Translations under genes and position numbers: made by a program
In this document: positions 8,884 through 55,044 of the stretch, piece by piece
Position numbering within the stretch: position 1 is the stretch's first letter
Layout: every line of letters begins with the position of its first letter
Notes under the pieces: generated by a model
Told to the model about the DNA's origin: nothing
Database searches by the model: none
What the model saw: only the letters and a program-made list of their open reading frames with translations
Source: Cryomorpha ignava
GTDB taxonomy: Bacteria > Bacteroidota > Bacteroidia > Flavobacteriales_D > Cryomorphaceae
Direction of reading: 5' to 3'
DNA length: 64,000 bases
Assembly: GCF_010686655.1 (NCBI RefSeq)
Contig: NZ_JAAGVY010000003.1
Span: 1 to 64,000 of the forward strand

Positions 8884-11394
8884 TCAATTGGTACTTGAGA
8901 CTGCATTTAGTCTTTCCCAACTCAAATTTCCGGTATAGCGGTGCGAGACCATTCCTTCTTCGTTCATAGCCAGTAAATTAATCCAGCCATTGTCGCACAA
9001 TTCTTTCACCATTTGGTGTTTTTCAATGATACGATTCATCTCTGCCATGGGCGCTTCAACTATTACATTTAGCCTTAAGGGTTCATGCTGATAACGCTCT
9101 CCATCGTGAATGGATTGAATGGGCAGCCCTACGCGCAAATCGCCCGAGTAGCCTTCTAATACGCCGATGCCGGCTGTAACATTGTGGAGGGTTTTATTTC
9201 CCGAACCAAAGGTTTTGTTATCTACTGTAGAGCCGTAATATTGCAGATTTATCCATGCGGTAACAACCATTGGGGCAGTCATAATGAGTTCCAGAACTGA
9301 GAATTGGGTATCTCTTTTCCAGTTGTAGGAATGTAAGAACGTGCTACTGCCTAAATCAATGTGTTTAGATCTTGAGCGCGGTGCGACTACAAATGCAGAG
9401 CAGCCTGCCAGACCCCATTCCGGCCGCACTTGCGACCAGTCTTTACTTCGCGCAATAATAGACTTGCTCACATCATTTCCAGTTGGTGAAAGCTTAAGCG
9501 ATCGCTCTAATCTGGTCGCGTTACCTGCCAACCTGAGAGATTTTTTAATTTCGGCCAAAGCTTCTTTTTGATTGATGGGTACATCATTTTCATTGTATAT
9601 GCCTACTTCATCAGTTGTGGTATCGTGCAGGCACGCTAAAAATGTAGTGTCTTTCGGAATAAAAATATTCGCTTTCTTAAGCCCTTCTCTTACTTCATTA
9701 TTATTTAAAACTGCTGCGGCTACTTTGGCATTAGCCTCACCGGTATGTCCTCCACATGCGCCACAATCGTATCCCGAAGCATGCGGATTATTTACCATTG
9801 TTGACCCGTGGCCGGTTATGAGAACAAAGGGGGCAAAATTTTCTGCTAAGGACATGGCAATCAGCGCGTTTTTCGCCATTTCTATTTGCTGATCTATTGG
9901 AATTCCGAAAGATTTCCCATCAACGATCTCTGATTTTAGGCTTATGCTTTTTTTACTAGAGGTATTATTGGTCATACCGGTTTTATTTGGATTGGGTACC
10001 GGCCTGGTTATGCCAAATGAATCTGTAAATAGTTTTGGAAGATAGGTGAGACCTAATGGACTAACAAAACTGAAACAGGTTATAGCACCAGATTTAAATG
10101 TTTTCCAAACTTGTTGAATTTGCCGGCTTAAAATCCTGTTGTTAAATACGCCTTTCTGTTCTTTTTCATCGGGCATTTGTTCCAGAATATTCGGTCCTGT
10201 TTTAAGCAGAACCGGGCATTGTGCTTCGCCAACCTTATGCCCAATAGGTAGATAATTGATAGAAAAAGCAAAAAAACCGGCAAACCCGAGGGTTTCGATT
10301 TTAGCATTAACCGCTTCGAGGTTTCTGCGGTAAACTTCTGAACGCACATCAATACAGAAAACAGCTTGAGCTTTGGGACGGACAGATTTGTCGTTGATAT
10401 AATTTTGACTTTTAAATTTACTTATCAATTTACGCTGCGCCGCAATGTCAAAAGCTTCCTGAAGAATCAAGTTTTCAGAGAGTTGCTCTTGAATTTCTAC
10501 TTGGATGTTGACCTGACCGTATAAAGCTTTATTTTCATTCCATTTTTGTGAAAGCGATGTGTGCATCAAACTATCGAGTATGCAAGCTTCCCAGCAGAGA
10601 AGAATGGCCAAAAACTCTATGAGCTTCCCATCTTTGCCACCATATAGTTCGCTATCCCAATCTAATCGCGCTGCATAGGCTGACCATCCGCCAACACCCA
10701 AAAGAATTTTATGCAAATAAAGCGGAATCCCTTCCTCGGGAATACCTATTTTATCAAGAGCTACTTGCGCTGCATACAATGGGTGATCAGGGAGTTGTTT
10801 AATGTGTTTTCTAAAATTTTTAAGACCACTAATCTCGGGAGTACGATCTATTTCTGCTTCCGCTTTCCAGGCCATAAACAACCCTTTGTTTTTATTGGCT
10901 GCCGACCAAATAGCCTGGCCATTATCAAAATAAGACGCAGCCCAAACAGAAATTCTGGCAATAACCAGTCGGCTCCAATCTTTGTGAGTTACCTGCGCGG
11001 CTGATTCTGCAATAATCGGAATGGTTTTGATTTTTATGGGTTTTTCAGGTCGCTTATTAATTTTCTGAATAAAATCCTTTACCTCTATCTTGCTGTTTCT
11101 TCTTCTTAAAGCTGCGGCTATATCATCATTTGTTATTTTTCCTGCCTTTATCTTTTCCAAATAAAAACCACCCGGAAGGGTCATTTGTATGGCTCCTGCA
11201 TACGCCAATTCCTGCGCCACTTCGGTAAATTTTTTGTCCGTAAGACCCAGATATGGATTTACCGCTACAAAATTTTCTAAAGGCCATACAGGAGCAATTT
11301 TTTTACAAGCCGTTCTTAATGTGCTTAGCAGCTTGGCTTGCTCGTCGCTTAAATTTTCAAAATAGCCGGCGTTTCGTAATGAATTTTCTACCAT
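8884..11394 (-). CDS. dabA: Inorganic carbon transporter subunit DabA (DUF2309)
   Basis: DabA is the soluble, beta-carbonic-anhydrase-like subunit of the DAB energy-coupled carbon accumulator, which is thought to trap CO2 as bicarbonate with the membrane partner DabB. The 836-residue length is typical. The four zinc/active-site positions are visible: Cys347 and Asp349 in VFCIDVRSE, His529 in ITGHGSTMVNN and Cys544 in DCGACGGHTG. The His-Cys spacing of 15 matches characterised DabA. No signal peptide is present. dabB lies 130 bases upstream on the same strand, with a hairpin repeat in the gap. Transport itself is inferred from the family. Confidence 0.93.
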   Translation of the reverse strand: MVENSLRNAGYFENLSDEQAKLLSTLRTACKKIAPVWPLENFVAVNPYLGLTDKKFTEVAQELAYAGAIQMTLPGGFYLEKIKAGKITNDDIAAALRRRNSKIEVKDFIQKINKRPEKPIKIKTIPIIAESAAQVTHKDWSRLVIARISVWAASYFDNGQAIWSAANKNKGLFMAWKAEAEIDRTPEISGLKNFRKHIKQLPDHPLYAAQVALDKIGIPEEGIPLYLHKILLGVGGWSAYAARLDWDSELYGGKDGKLIEFLAILLCWEACILDSLMHTSLSQKWNENKALYGQVNIQVEIQEQLSENLILQEAFDIAAQRKLISKFKSQNYINDKSVRPKAQAVFCIDVRSEVYRRNLEAVNAKIETLGFAGFFAFSINYLPIGHKVGEAQCPVLLKTGPNILEQMPDEKEQKGVFNNRILSRQIQQVWKTFKSGAITCFSFVSPLGLTYLPKLFTDSFGITRPVPNPNKTGMTNNTSSKKSISLKSEIVDGKSFGIPIDQQIEMAKNALIAMSLAENFAPFVLITGHGSTMVNNPHASGYDCGACGGHTGEANAKVAAAVLNNNEVREGLKKANIFIPKDTTFLACLHDTTTDEVGIYNENDVPINQKEALAEIKKSLRLAGNATRLERSLKLSPTGNDVSKSIIARSKDWSQVRPEWGLAGCSAFVVAPRSRSKHIDLGSSTFLHSYNWKRDTQFSVLELIMTAPMVVTAWINLQYYGSTVDNKTFGSGNKTLHNVTAGIGVLEGYSGDLRVGLPIQSIHDGERYQHEPLRLNVIVEAPMAEMNRIIEKHQMVKELCDNGWINLLAMNEEGMVSHRYTGNLSWERLNAVSSTN

Positions 11395-33934: not shown

Positions 33935-34043
33935 CAATGACTAGAATGCTTCTCGTGTGAGTCAAATCACAATACTTGTTTTTTGGGGAATGTGTCGGTT
34001 ATGGTTTTTTTTGGCACAATTAAATTAATGCAAATACGTATCA

Positions 34044-34059
34044 CGTACCTAAAGGCACG
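34044..34059. repeat. REP-like hairpin, left
   Basis: CGTACCTAAAGGCACG forms a 6-bp stem (one G-T pair) with a TAAA loop. Its arms are the inverse of the hairpin at 34538-34553. The pair bracket the tandem repeat array. Confidence 0.65.
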
Positions 34060-34195
34060 TTATGTTCGGAATGAATCGTTTTTGGCTACCGATATTAAGG
34101 CTACCGATATTAAGTCCCTAACGCGACAGTGTCGAAAATTCATCCATCTCCGTCGTTCCTCTATAGAAATTCGTGATTTAAATTAAAAATGCCGA

Positions 34196-34499
34196 AATTT
34201 ATCCATGCATTTTCGTCCCGTTAGGGACAAAATATGGGATGATATAATTTATCCATCCATTGACGTCCCGTTAGGGATAAAATATGGGATGATACAATTT
34301 ATCCATCCGTATTCGTCACCGTTCGGGATAAAATATGGGATGATATAATTTATCCATCCGTATTCGTCACCGTTCGGGATAAAATATGGGATGATACAAT
34401 TTATCCATCCGTATTCGTCACCGTTCGGGATAAAATATGGGATGATATAATTTATCCATCCATTGACGTCCCGTTAGGGACGAAATATTGGTAGATGAC
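34196..34499. repeat. Tandem array of six 50-51 bp units with hairpins
   Basis: Units begin with AATTTATCCAT at 34196, 34246, 34296, 34347, 34398 and 34449, so the period is 50, 50, 51, 51 and 51 bases. Each carries a small hairpin, GTCCCGTTAGGGAC in the outer units and CACCGTTCGGGAT in the inner ones, followed by AAAATATGGGATGATA. There are no unique spacers, so this is not a CRISPR array. It lies just upstream of a REP-associated transposase remnant, as REP families usually do. Confidence 0.9.
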
Positions 34500-34537
34500 A
34501 AAATATGGGTAGCTCCTAGAATTTATAAACGAACCGG

Positions 34538-34553
34538 CGTGCCGTGAGGTACG
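34538..34553. repeat. REP-like hairpin, right
   Basis: CGTGCCGTGAGGTACG, with a GTGA loop, is the inverted counterpart of 34044-34059. It ends 18 bases before the transposase remnant ATG. Confidence 0.65.
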
Positions 34554-34571
34554 CAATATGAAACATTATTA

Positions 34572-35033
34572 ATGGCAAATACCTACACACAAATTCATAT
34601 CCAAACCGTTTTTGCGGTGCGGAACAGACAGAGTCTCATTCAGAGAGATTGGCAAGACGAACTCTATAAATATATTACTGGAATTATTCAGAACCACAGC
34701 CATAAAATTTAACAAATTAACGGCATGTCTGATCATATCCATATTCTCTTCGGAATGCGTCCCACACAATCTATCTCGGATCTCTTAAAACAGGTGAAAC
34801 ATGATTCATCTGTATGGATAAATGATGAAGGTTTCGCGAATGGAAAATTCTCGTGGCAATCGGGTTATGGTGCATTTTCATATTCAAAACGTGATGTTCC
34901 GAATGTGATAAGATACAACAAAAATCAAAATGAACATCATAAAGCGATATCCTTTACAGATGAATATTTGAAATTGCTGCAAGAATTTGAAATGGAATAT
35001 GACAATCGTTACATATTGAAATCGGTGATGTAA
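34572..35033 (+). pseudogene. REP-associated tyrosine (Y1/HUH) transposase, nonsense mutation
   Basis: From ATG 34572 the frame reads MANTYTQIHIQTVFAVRNRQ through NHSHKI, then TAA (near 34709), then QINGMSDHIHILFGMRPTQS to the natural stop at 35033, all in one frame of 154 codons. DHIHILFG holds the HUH metal-binding pair, and YGAFSYSKRDV follows where the catalytic Tyr lies. A single TTA-to-TAA change would explain the break. An ATG after the stop could start a 102-residue C-terminal piece, but that lacks the first strands. Neighbouring hairpin repeats are its likely substrate family. Confidence 0.85.
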
Positions 35034-35240: not shown

Positions 35241-36125
35241 ATGGCAGAAGGAATAAAAGAGTATCTGAATAAGGTTATTCAGGGCGATTGTCTGGATGTG
35301 ATGAAAAGTTTTCCGGACAAGTCGATCGATATGATTCTCTGCGATTTGCCCTATGGCACAACCCAGAATAAATGGGATTCGGTAATAGATCTCAAAAAGC
35401 TTTGGAATGAGTATGAAAGAATAATAAAGGACAATGGTGCCATTGCTTTAACTGCGCAAGGTATTTTTACCGCCCGACTTATTTTGAGCAACGAAAAATT
35501 ATTCAAATACAAGGTGGTTTGGATAAAGTCTAAATCCACAAATTTTCTAAATGCCAAAAAGCAACCTCTTAGAAAACATGAAGATATTTGTGTTTTTTAT
35601 AAAAATCCGCCGACATACAATCCGCAAATGACTCCAGGGGAAGCTTACGATAAAGGAGTGAGAAAAGCCCAGAACACCGGGAGTTACGGCTTGTTTGAAC
35701 CCAGCCACGTAAAAAGCAAAGGTAAGAGATATCCCAATGACATCGTTTTTTATGAAAACCAGCCCGTTGATGATTTTGTATATGTAAAAACAGCCGAGAG
35801 TGAAGGCCCGGTATTGCATCCAACCCAAAAGCCGATTGCGCTAGGCAGGTATTTGATAAGAACCTACACAAATCCGGGCGATGTAATACTAGACAATGCC
35901 AGTGGCAGCGGTAGTTTTTTATTGTCAGCGATACTTGAAAACAGAGGTTTTATCGGAATTGAAAAAAATAAAAATGGCGAGCTGCACCGAATAAAGAAAA
36001 TGGATTTCATCAAAATCACTTCAGATAGGATTGAGCAAATACTGGAGCGAGATGAAGTTGAAGAGTCACGGCGAGCGCTATTTGCTAAGCCGATTTTTGA
36101 TAATCATACTTTCGTTTTACGATGA
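35241..36125 (+). CDS. DNA methyltransferase, beta-class N6-adenine/N4-cytosine type
   Basis: Methylates a specific DNA sequence using S-adenosylmethionine. The 294-residue protein has catalytic motif IV DLPYG (residues 35-39) first and the SAM-binding motif ILDNASGSGSF (about 214-224) later, the order of the beta class. The target-recognition region lies between. LHPTQKPIALGRYLIRTYT is the usual motif before motif I. No restriction endonuclease gene is adjacent, so it is an orphan methylase or a relic of a restriction system. It sits between a dead transposase and a broken toxin-antitoxin pair. Confidence 0.88.
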   Translation: MAEGIKEYLNKVIQGDCLDVMKSFPDKSIDMILCDLPYGTTQNKWDSVIDLKKLWNEYERIIKDNGAIALTAQGIFTARLILSNEKLFKYKVVWIKSKSTNFLNAKKQPLRKHEDICVFYKNPPTYNPQMTPGEAYDKGVRKAQNTGSYGLFEPSHVKSKGKRYPNDIVFYENQPVDDFVYVKTAESEGPVLHPTQKPIALGRYLIRTYTNPGDVILDNASGSGSFLLSAILENRGFIGIEKNKNGELHRIKKMDFIKITSDRIEQILERDEVEESRRALFAKPIFDNHTFVLR

Positions 36126-54739: not shown

Positions 54740-54801
54740 GCTTTAAATTTTTTGCAAATTTACGCATCTGGATTCGATTATTAAAGGGTTGTTTTAATTA
54801 C

Positions 54802-54857
54802 GAATTATGAATTATGAATTATGAATTATGAATTATGAATTATGAATTATGAATTAT
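54802..54857. repeat. Heptanucleotide tandem repeat, eight units
   Basis: GAATTAT repeated eight times without error, 56 bases, followed by a partial unit. It lies between two divergent genes: 63 bases before the CBS-domain gene start and upstream of the gene starting near 55045. Each change of one unit would alter promoter spacing by 7 bases. Every frame of the unit contains a stop or soon meets one, so it is not coding. Confidence 0.9.
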
Positions 54858-55044
54858 GAATGTCCAAGCAAATGTGTCTTACTCAACAGAACATATATTG
54901 AACTCGCAAAATTTGAAGTAAACAAATTACAAAGACAATTTTATATCTTAGGAGGATTATTTCAAGACTTTGCATGCAGCAGTGCTAACTGAAAAAGCGG
55001 AGCAGATTGTGTGCATTTCGATATTAAAAACCGGGCAGCATAGG

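Follow-up and report, generated by a model that had tools for sequence, protein, structure and literature searches.

Why should a regular array of 50-51 base pair (bp) units, bracketed by inverted hairpins, stand directly upstream of a transposase gene with an in-frame stop codon? The locus in question lies at 34044-35033 of a 64,000-nucleotide (nt) stretch of contig NZ_JAAGVY010000003.1 from Cryomorpha ignava, here called the window, whose positions serve as coordinates throughout. An earlier note, made from the letters of this DNA alone, suggested that the array could be a repetitive extragenic palindromic (REP) element that had multiplied by replication slippage beside a dead REP-associated enzyme; its observation is mostly right, its interpretation half right. 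We think it likely that a Y1 HUH transposase of subclass 1.2 once had here a REPtron-like locus, now decayed, whose outer hairpin arm was tandemly multiplied and whose enzyme was apparently inactivated. This reading starts from what was seen directly, namely the anatomy of the locus, its recurrence in relatives, the dispersal of its hairpins there and a copy-number difference at a syntenic locus.

Tandem Repeats Finder (TRF) reports a 51-bp array at 34196-34461 (5.3 copies, 93% matches, score 434). With the diverged last unit included, there are six abutting units in direct orientation on the forward strand at 34196-34499, in keeping with the six regular units first described; U1 to U6 start at 34196, 34246, 34296, 34347, 34398 and 34449, U1 and U2 being 50 bp and U3-U6 51 bp long. 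U6, which adjoins the transposase gene, is the only canonical unit: its outer motif, O (34468-34496, forward strand), consists of the hairpin GTCCC-GTTA-GGGAC, 8 nt and the tag GGTAG, scores 44.2 bits (E 5.8e-10) against R1, our covariance model of O, and folds as DNA at -7.1 kcal/mol, with 3 of 200 shuffles as good. An inner hairpin, I (CGTGCC-GTGA-GGTACG, then ATAT; 34538-34553, forward strand), stands in a place comparable to that in relatives, folds at -6.3 kcal/mol (7/200 shuffles as good) and ends 18 nt 5' of the transposase ATG, the spacing that the earlier note had given. Left of the array the same elements are inverted: an I hairpin, CGTACC-TAAA-GGCACG (34044-34059, reverse strand), similar to hairpins found 3' of tnpA in relatives, and an O motif with a degenerate hairpin (34099-34127, reverse strand; 27.7 bits against R1). 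Both bracketing CGTACC/GGCACG hairpins are therefore present, as claimed, the left one being weak alone (-2.3 kcal/mol as single-stranded DNA, 90/200 shuffles equal or better), and the left O motif, folded alone as DNA, no longer forms an O-type hairpin. Adjoining that motif is a perfect 15-bp tandem duplication, GGCTACCGATATTAA (34084-34113), of its CTACC-GATAT tag. Taken as a whole, the module at 34040-34575 folds at -81 kcal/mol, compared with -61.5 for shuffles (z -4.33; 0/100 as good), and its two flanking arms pair into the one long hairpin that characterizes REPINs (paired REP elements) and bacterial interspersed mosaic elements (BIMEs).

The units inside the array have largely lost these features. 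U1 keeps a hairpin, GTCCCGTTAGGGAC (34215-34228, forward strand; 28.4 bits against R1), and U2 the hairpin sequence GTCCCGTTAGGGAT (34265-34278, forward strand; 21.9 bits), both matching model positions 1-24 only and both without GGTAG. The GTAG tag is missing from U1 through U5, and U3-U5 do not form the hairpin either: the stretch CACCGTTCGGGAT, tested in U3 and differing in U4 and U5 at most at its last base, folds as DNA at -0.3 kcal/mol, and 196 of 200 shuffles do as well. Of the two hairpin types once read into the array, the outer stands, in that U6 folds and is tagged; the inner does not, and the inner units are decayed, not a second hairpin type. That the inner units are more alike was correctly seen (U3 and U5 are identical and lack GGTAG, as does U4, which is one column off; U1, U2 and U6 differ from U3-U5 at 6 to 14 of 52 columns, and pairs outside U3-U5 overall at 5-14 of 52). 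Since U3-U5 are the most alike and yet lack both hairpin and tag, they are presumably the youngest copies, made from an already decayed unit; the best 60-base stretch of the array repeats exactly at a period of 102 bp and at 98% at 51 bp, which suggests a recent duplication step of two units. A CRISPR array (clustered regularly interspaced short palindromic repeats) is ruled out, the units abutting without spacers. A search of the locus against Rfam found no family, its single microRNA match (E 0.91) being at chance level, and a DNA search with the whole array through 60 genomes (its own and 59 relatives) returned only the array itself.

What kind of enzyme does the neighbouring gene encode? 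The gene (34572-35033, forward strand) comprises 153 codons and is recognized by Pfam, motifs and relatives as a Y1 HUH transposase of the Y---Q--HH type; its reading frame is interrupted by a TAA at codon 47 (34710-34712), as first noted, and shows no frameshift. HIH (in DHIH) and YNKNQNEHH, with the presumed catalytic tyrosine, both lie downstream of the stop, which the five best tblastn alignments of intact relatives cross at 71-74% identity, and Pfam Y1_Tnp is found in both halves, in the first slightly under the cutoff (20.4 vs 23 bits). The window gene thus shows the protein features of subclass 1.2 (HuH plus Y---Q--HH, about 150 residues and a Y1_Tnp core), and the Y--(-)Q--HH signature recurs in 35 of 36 open reading frames (ORFs) of relatives, which were chosen by a motif filter that favoured it, with a one-residue variant in Confluentibacter (L008). 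The earlier note's "REP-associated transposase" is another protein class: RAYT, or TnpAREP (class 2, Y---NP), is excluded by the Y---Q--HH motif together with the scores against NCBIfam REP_Tyr_transpos, where no sequence passes the cutoff of 80 bits (31.8, 32.4 and 20 for relatives, 19.7 for the window's second half). By these motifs and profile searches, on which the family assignment rests, the enzyme is of the TnpA_Y1 subclass 1.2 type and not a RAYT. Subclass 1.2, as tabulated in the sections of Quentin et al. 2018 (PMC6006769) drawn on here, has the signature Y---Q--HH, hosts among Cyanobacteria and Bacteroidetes, and the entry "no" for REP.

That entry sits uneasily with what surrounds such genes in relatives. 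We compared 35 loci from public genomes (34 Bacteroidota and one titled Ignavibacteria, phylum being taken from record titles); hairpin counts cover 35 genes, namely 34 of these loci plus the window, L012 with its short, broken reading frame being excluded. The O motif combines a hairpin of 5-bp stem with a GTAG placed 9 nt to its 3' side, so that the opposite strand reads CTACC, ATAT, hairpin; I is the inner hairpin with an ATAT motif beside the gene. At its most complete the arrangement reads O> I> tnpA <I <O, as in Confluentibacter (L008), Aequorivita (L013), L024 and L028. An O motif lies within 150 bp upstream of 26 of the 35 tnpA genes, the window included, and inverted downstream of 23, compared with 0/49 control ORFs on either side; the I rule picks out 18/35 genes upstream and 14/35 downstream (control ORFs 0/49 and 4/49), and all four hairpins are found by rule at 9/35 genes and 0/49 control ORFs. 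A similar O rule gives 2.9 matches per kb within 700 bp of tnpA (144 matches in 37 regions, here with L043 and L046, which the 35-gene count did not take in) vs 0.46 per kb beyond 1 kb.

Because the O rule was learned on the same loci in which it was counted, GTAG after hairpins was counted independently of the rule, and the 25 loci outside the model serve as an independent check. Across the 35 public loci GTAG peaks at offset 9, which accounts for 64 of the 87 occurrences between offsets 0 and 24; of 34 occurrences in the 25 loci outside the model, 16 fall at offset 9 and 7 at offset 10 (23/34 together). Of 11 anagrams of GTAG, a related peak appears only for GGTA and AGGT, both of which overlap GGTAG. 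Separately, in two Bacteroidales loci from ruminant records (L031, L032) the tnpA flanks share multi-hairpin modules in 118-bp tandem units; these hairpins are unlike the O type, and some are followed by GGTAG.

The hairpins are also found away from the gene. R1 was built from 34 sequences, the window excluded, that were selected to have a GGT-type tag and a perfect stem of 5 bp (an earlier alignment, A1, of 40 sequences, some with 3-nt loops, was superseded by A2); its covariation is biased by this selection and is not used as evidence. Scoring 150 first-look candidates per genome in the window's own genome and 14 named host genomes, and 50 per genome in a sample of the class, R1 found 99 sites in 12 of the 14 hosts at E <= 0.001, a subset of a longer list reaching E 0.1. 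A tnpA is no more than 2.5 kb away from 53 of these sites; the other 46 are farther from one, and such far sites occur in 9 of the 14 genomes. Some of the far sites, read directly, are gene-free modules and arrays, REPIN-like pairs included, for example a run of 51-52 bp O units away from tnpA in Xanthomarina (L053) and O units of 54-55 bp near a contig end (L054). In the class sample, one genome (G203) has seven inspected <I <O..O> I> copies at different places (L093-L099). Three <O..O> pairs inspected in another (G078; L088-L090) are each accompanied by an I-like hairpin on one side or both, and O> I> <I <O arrangements occur at L101, L104, L105 and L107. Among the 148 class genomes besides the window's, a tnpA at E <= 1e-20 is present in 22 of 26 genomes with O among the matches listed vs 44 of 122 without (Fisher p = 6e-6), and O occurs in 11 of 16 genomes having a close tnpA vs 15 of 132 others (p = 1.5e-6), in tests that ignore the relatedness of the genomes.

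Tandem growth, too, is concentrated beside the gene. TRF arrays with a period of at least 30 lie within 1 kb of tnpA at 15 of 34 loci, those counted as far from tnpA come to 3 loci, one of them overlapping the gene end, and relatives' loci range from single units to an array of 13.0. The earlier note had asked for copy-number change in relatives, and it is there: two Salinimicrobium loci, L011 and L040, syntenic on both sides, differ in their copies of a unit of 105-106 bp, 13.0 vs 3.0. Similarity within L011 is highest among some of the middle units, the fixed-frame comparison being out of register for others. Two Psychroflexus records (L014, L015) share a locus at which an extra module is placed differently, and in L015 a 3' remnant of tnpA precedes the module. 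The window's module is inside-out like that of L015, with <I <O left of the array, and has no detectable remnant: a search left of 34044, with L015 as positive control, found no transposase remnant, the best hit (E 0.024) lying at unrelated places. A tandem-copy origin of the window's inside-out module is accordingly rejected.

How might such a locus arise? The presumed targets of a subclass 1.2 TnpA are the short O and I hairpins in their inverted pairs. By analogy to TnpAREP, for which cleavage at CT near the hairpin has been described, with GTAG as the likely guide (PMC8266576), the enzyme would bind these hairpins as single strands and cut at the CT in CTACC. As CTACC lies between I and O at each end, cutting would set free not only the gene but also modules that lack it, and TnpA would in this way have spread the dispersed hairpin copies. 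In the window, one <I <O..O> I> module would have come to lie directly upstream of tnpA, comparable gene-free modules occurring elsewhere in some genomes; its O arm would then have grown to six units by tandem duplication, through slippage or unequal exchange, the youngest copies stemming from a unit by then without tag or hairpin. The gene would also have acquired its stop codon, and the downstream hairpins are absent. We are evenly divided on a broader proposal, that in the Bacteroidota the Y1 transposases of subclass 1.2 operate a separate REP system, derived from the IS200 branch independently of RAYTs, with GTAG 9 nt 3' of the hairpin, two-hairpin ends with CTACC between I and O, and dispersed gene-free modules and tandem arrays as products; the position of CTACC would allow each end to serve as left and right end at once.

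Several observations weigh against reading the window as a REPtron-like locus. Its hairpin family is confined to this place in its own genome, where R1 (150 of 1650 first-look candidates scored) found four sites, all at this locus, and a next match at E 0.43; as far as these searches see, the family has not multiplied through the genome. Directly 3' of the window's transposase gene neither R1 nor the motif rule found a copy of the hairpins, so that the array stands on one side only and the flanking typical of a REPtron is limited to the upstream side. The missing remnant left of 34044 counts on the same side. In relatives, only the nine genes mentioned have all four hairpins, 6/35 have no O motif within 150 bp on either side, and the downstream I rule is satisfied by four control ORFs as well. 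The O rule itself also finds matches elsewhere, 40 of them in 87 kb of control sequence and 22 in the remaining 61 kb of the window, and only 8 of the 25 independent loci have GTAG at offset 8-10 (anagrams except GGTA, 0-5). Comparing the two flanks for inverted similarity, a weaker test than the motif, gives significance at 23 of 48 loci but not for the window; this set excludes L082, which was too short, and ten class-level loci in which no ORF was detected, and uses approximate coordinates for L042, L044 and L045. R1 has no matches in two Algoriphagus genomes, at least 11 of the 46 far sites are so near a contig end (about 600 bp or less) that in a closed genome they might prove to belong to a tnpA locus, and in the class sample four O-positive genomes lack tnpA at E <= 1e-20, while 44 tnpA-positive genomes have no O match.

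Could the locus be an ordinary IS200/IS605 insertion sequence whose subterminal hairpins were duplicated by chance, with nothing REP-like about it? The NCBIfam IS200/IS605 model does call the three full-length relatives tested (68.7-80.5 bits, cutoff 55; the window's second half alone reaches 32.2), the nearest solved structures by sequence are transposases, ISHp608 among them as well as the 2xm3 group, which we take to be ISDra2, and tagged hairpins lie near both gene ends in many relatives. The end hairpins, however, are inverted, whereas those of IS200 have the same orientation on one strand, and hairpin modules without the gene are dispersed. Nor are there several near-identical whole copies per genome: the window's genome has six other transposase matches at 40-44% identity, one with two stops, and no near-identical second copy, and 12 of the 14 host genomes have exactly one copy at >60% identity to the query, the other two none. 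We regard this explanation as distinctly unlikely, and as highly improbable the proposal that hairpins and array form a regulatory leader of the transposase gene, an attenuator or a translation-blocking structure, and not transposition sites. Such a leader would suit an I hairpin so close to the start codon (18 nt), O hairpins a little farther 5' and a promoter-like match at 34495-34522; it does not account for O lying inverted downstream of 23/35 genes or for hairpins at gene-free places, and a scan for promoters and terminators found no terminator-like site, promoter-like sites at background frequency (9 vs a shuffle mean of 7.6) and, as noted, no Rfam family beyond a chance match.

If the locus is REPtron-like, as we favour, two narrower questions concern how its array grew and whether its gene is truly broken. 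The transposase itself might have built the array, by cutting and rejoining single strands at the tag, instead of slippage or unequal exchange: arrays cluster at tnpA in those 15 of 34 loci, several units keep GTAG in some genomes (L011, L053), and arrays also occur away from tnpA. We find this doubtful, because U1-U5 have no tag and U3-U5 no hairpin, although U3-U5 are the most alike and presumably the youngest, and because the 51- and 102-bp periodicity fits duplication, arguments that reach the recent copies and not older events. The multiplication of a REP-like unit that the earlier note proposed therefore stands as a tandem event beside tnpA and not as a genome-wide one, and slippage is a likely route, with unequal recombination as another. 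As for the gene, the proportions of nonsynonymous and synonymous differences (pN and pS) between it and seven relatives are 0.15-0.18 and 0.67-0.80, and four intact pairs of similar pS have pN of 0.10-0.14; judged by these values the window gene is evolving slightly faster than intact pairs, yet far from neutrally. At columns conserved to 90% it departs three times, the TAA included, compared with 0-5 times in the other 34 genes, and one of the departing residues adjoins the presumed catalytic tyrosine. Both measures imply either that the gene was kept until fairly recently or that the TAA is a sequence error. An assembly or sequencing error in an intact gene is a minority prospect of some weight, favoured by a lone stop with zero frameshifts in 153 codons, by the low pN relative to pS and by a number of departures inside the range of the other genes, and disfavoured by a pN above that of the intact pairs, by the altered residue beside the tyrosine, and by the missing downstream hairpins and decayed upstream units, which are consistent with real decay. 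The enzyme has thus apparently been inactivated recently: the loss of the enzyme, as first claimed, holds in that the gene is interrupted, and is weakly founded in that a single stop breaks an otherwise constrained-looking frame. With the stop codon and the missing right-hand hairpins together, the locus is probably immobile as a unit today.

The same genome offers a comparison. The search for intact transposases and hairpins genome-wide that the earlier note had suggested gave an intact enzyme, and no copy of the window's hairpin family elsewhere. Contig C9 (L112, 9000-12500) carries an intact ORF of subclass 1.2 type (10517-11002, minus strand), 43% identical to the window's, among 13 copies of a different, bulged hairpin, GACCCTGTAAGGCGTC, 8 of which are followed by 8 nt and GTAG. 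At <=1 mismatch the GACCCTGTAAGGCGTC core occurs 26 times in the genome, on six contigs (reversed-pattern control 0), and the copies outside C9, on C1, C6, C8, C10 and C42, mostly have inverted partners. One genome thus holds both an enzyme with dispersed hairpins and a broken enzyme with a purely local family. Contigs C32, C11, C29, C14 and C23 (L043-L047) carry four further transposase copies, of which one is at a contig end, together with a copy broken by two stops; distinct hairpins of their own flank several of these genes, such as GTGCC-AGA-GGCAC followed by CGTTATT in L043. Next to the window's transposase gene are a gene of the fatty-acid hydroxylase family and one for an N6/N4 DNA methylase, neither of them tnpB by Pfam; the methylase gene (35241-36125) lies directly 3' of the broken gene. 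Elsewhere in the window, the seven-base repeat AATTATG runs for 9.4 copies at 54796-54861 (98% matches).

Hairpins with a 3' GTAG, found around and beyond a transposase group listed as having no REP, are a variant of the REP/REPtron kind, of which the window locus is a small relic and probably a dead example. The literature cited here (PMC8266576, PMC6006769) describes as open both the way in which REP sequences spread and the reason for the retention of such HUH genes. A class 1 enzyme with dispersed, tagged hairpins provides an independent system for comparison and names candidate substrates and a likely cut site. It also calls into question the published no-REP entry, and the group concerned looks common: 67 of 149 sampled class genomes, the window's own included, have proteins that match the second half of its transposase (E <= 1e-20), counted whatever their subclass. 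If an independent REP system of subclass 1.2 is real, it would occupy an intermediate position, with insertion sequences on one side and REPtrons on the other.

How does the locus compare with known systems? With IS200/IS605 elements (subclass 1.1: IS608, ISDra2) it shares a homologous Y1 transposase and hairpins near the ends; it differs from them in low copy number, inverted hairpin pairs and gene-free hairpin copies. Local multiplication of REP-bearing units, as in the window, is also known from REP arrays of the BIME-2 type in E. coli, but the window's units are direct, in one orientation, and the inner ones lack hairpin and tag. The closest match for the enzyme is TnpA_Y1 subclass 1.2, with its HuH (here HIH), WQ and Y---Q--HH motifs, about 150 residues, Bacteroidetes hosts and a low genomic copy number, which the window's genome also shows (PMC6006769, in the sections cited above). 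Unlike subclass 1.2 as described there, most of the genes examined here have flanking hairpins with GTAG on the 3' side, which are also dispersed in several hosts; the absence of REP does not hold for these loci, and it is a property stated of the subclass, not one that defines it. A literature search that left out subscription papers, supplements and preprints returned no report of hairpins for subclass 1.2. In their arrangement the loci most resemble the REPtrons of TnpAREP/RAYT enzymes with their BIMEs and REPINs, in which, in the passages of PMC8266576 and PMC2817692 used, small GTAG hairpins lie inverted around an HUH gene and as dispersed pairs and arrays; the Marinomonas REPtron Mb, for example, has 5-bp palindromes with a TTTA loop, and its REPs are concentrated near tnpA (PMC8266576). 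From these REPtrons the loci differ in a class 1 enzyme (Y---Q--HH, not Y---NP) and in two hairpin types, I and O, per end. And whereas a canonical REP has GT[AG]G 0-2 nt 5' of its hairpin, here GTAG peaks 9 nt 3' of it, and the sequence 5' of the U6 hairpin in the window is TTGAC.
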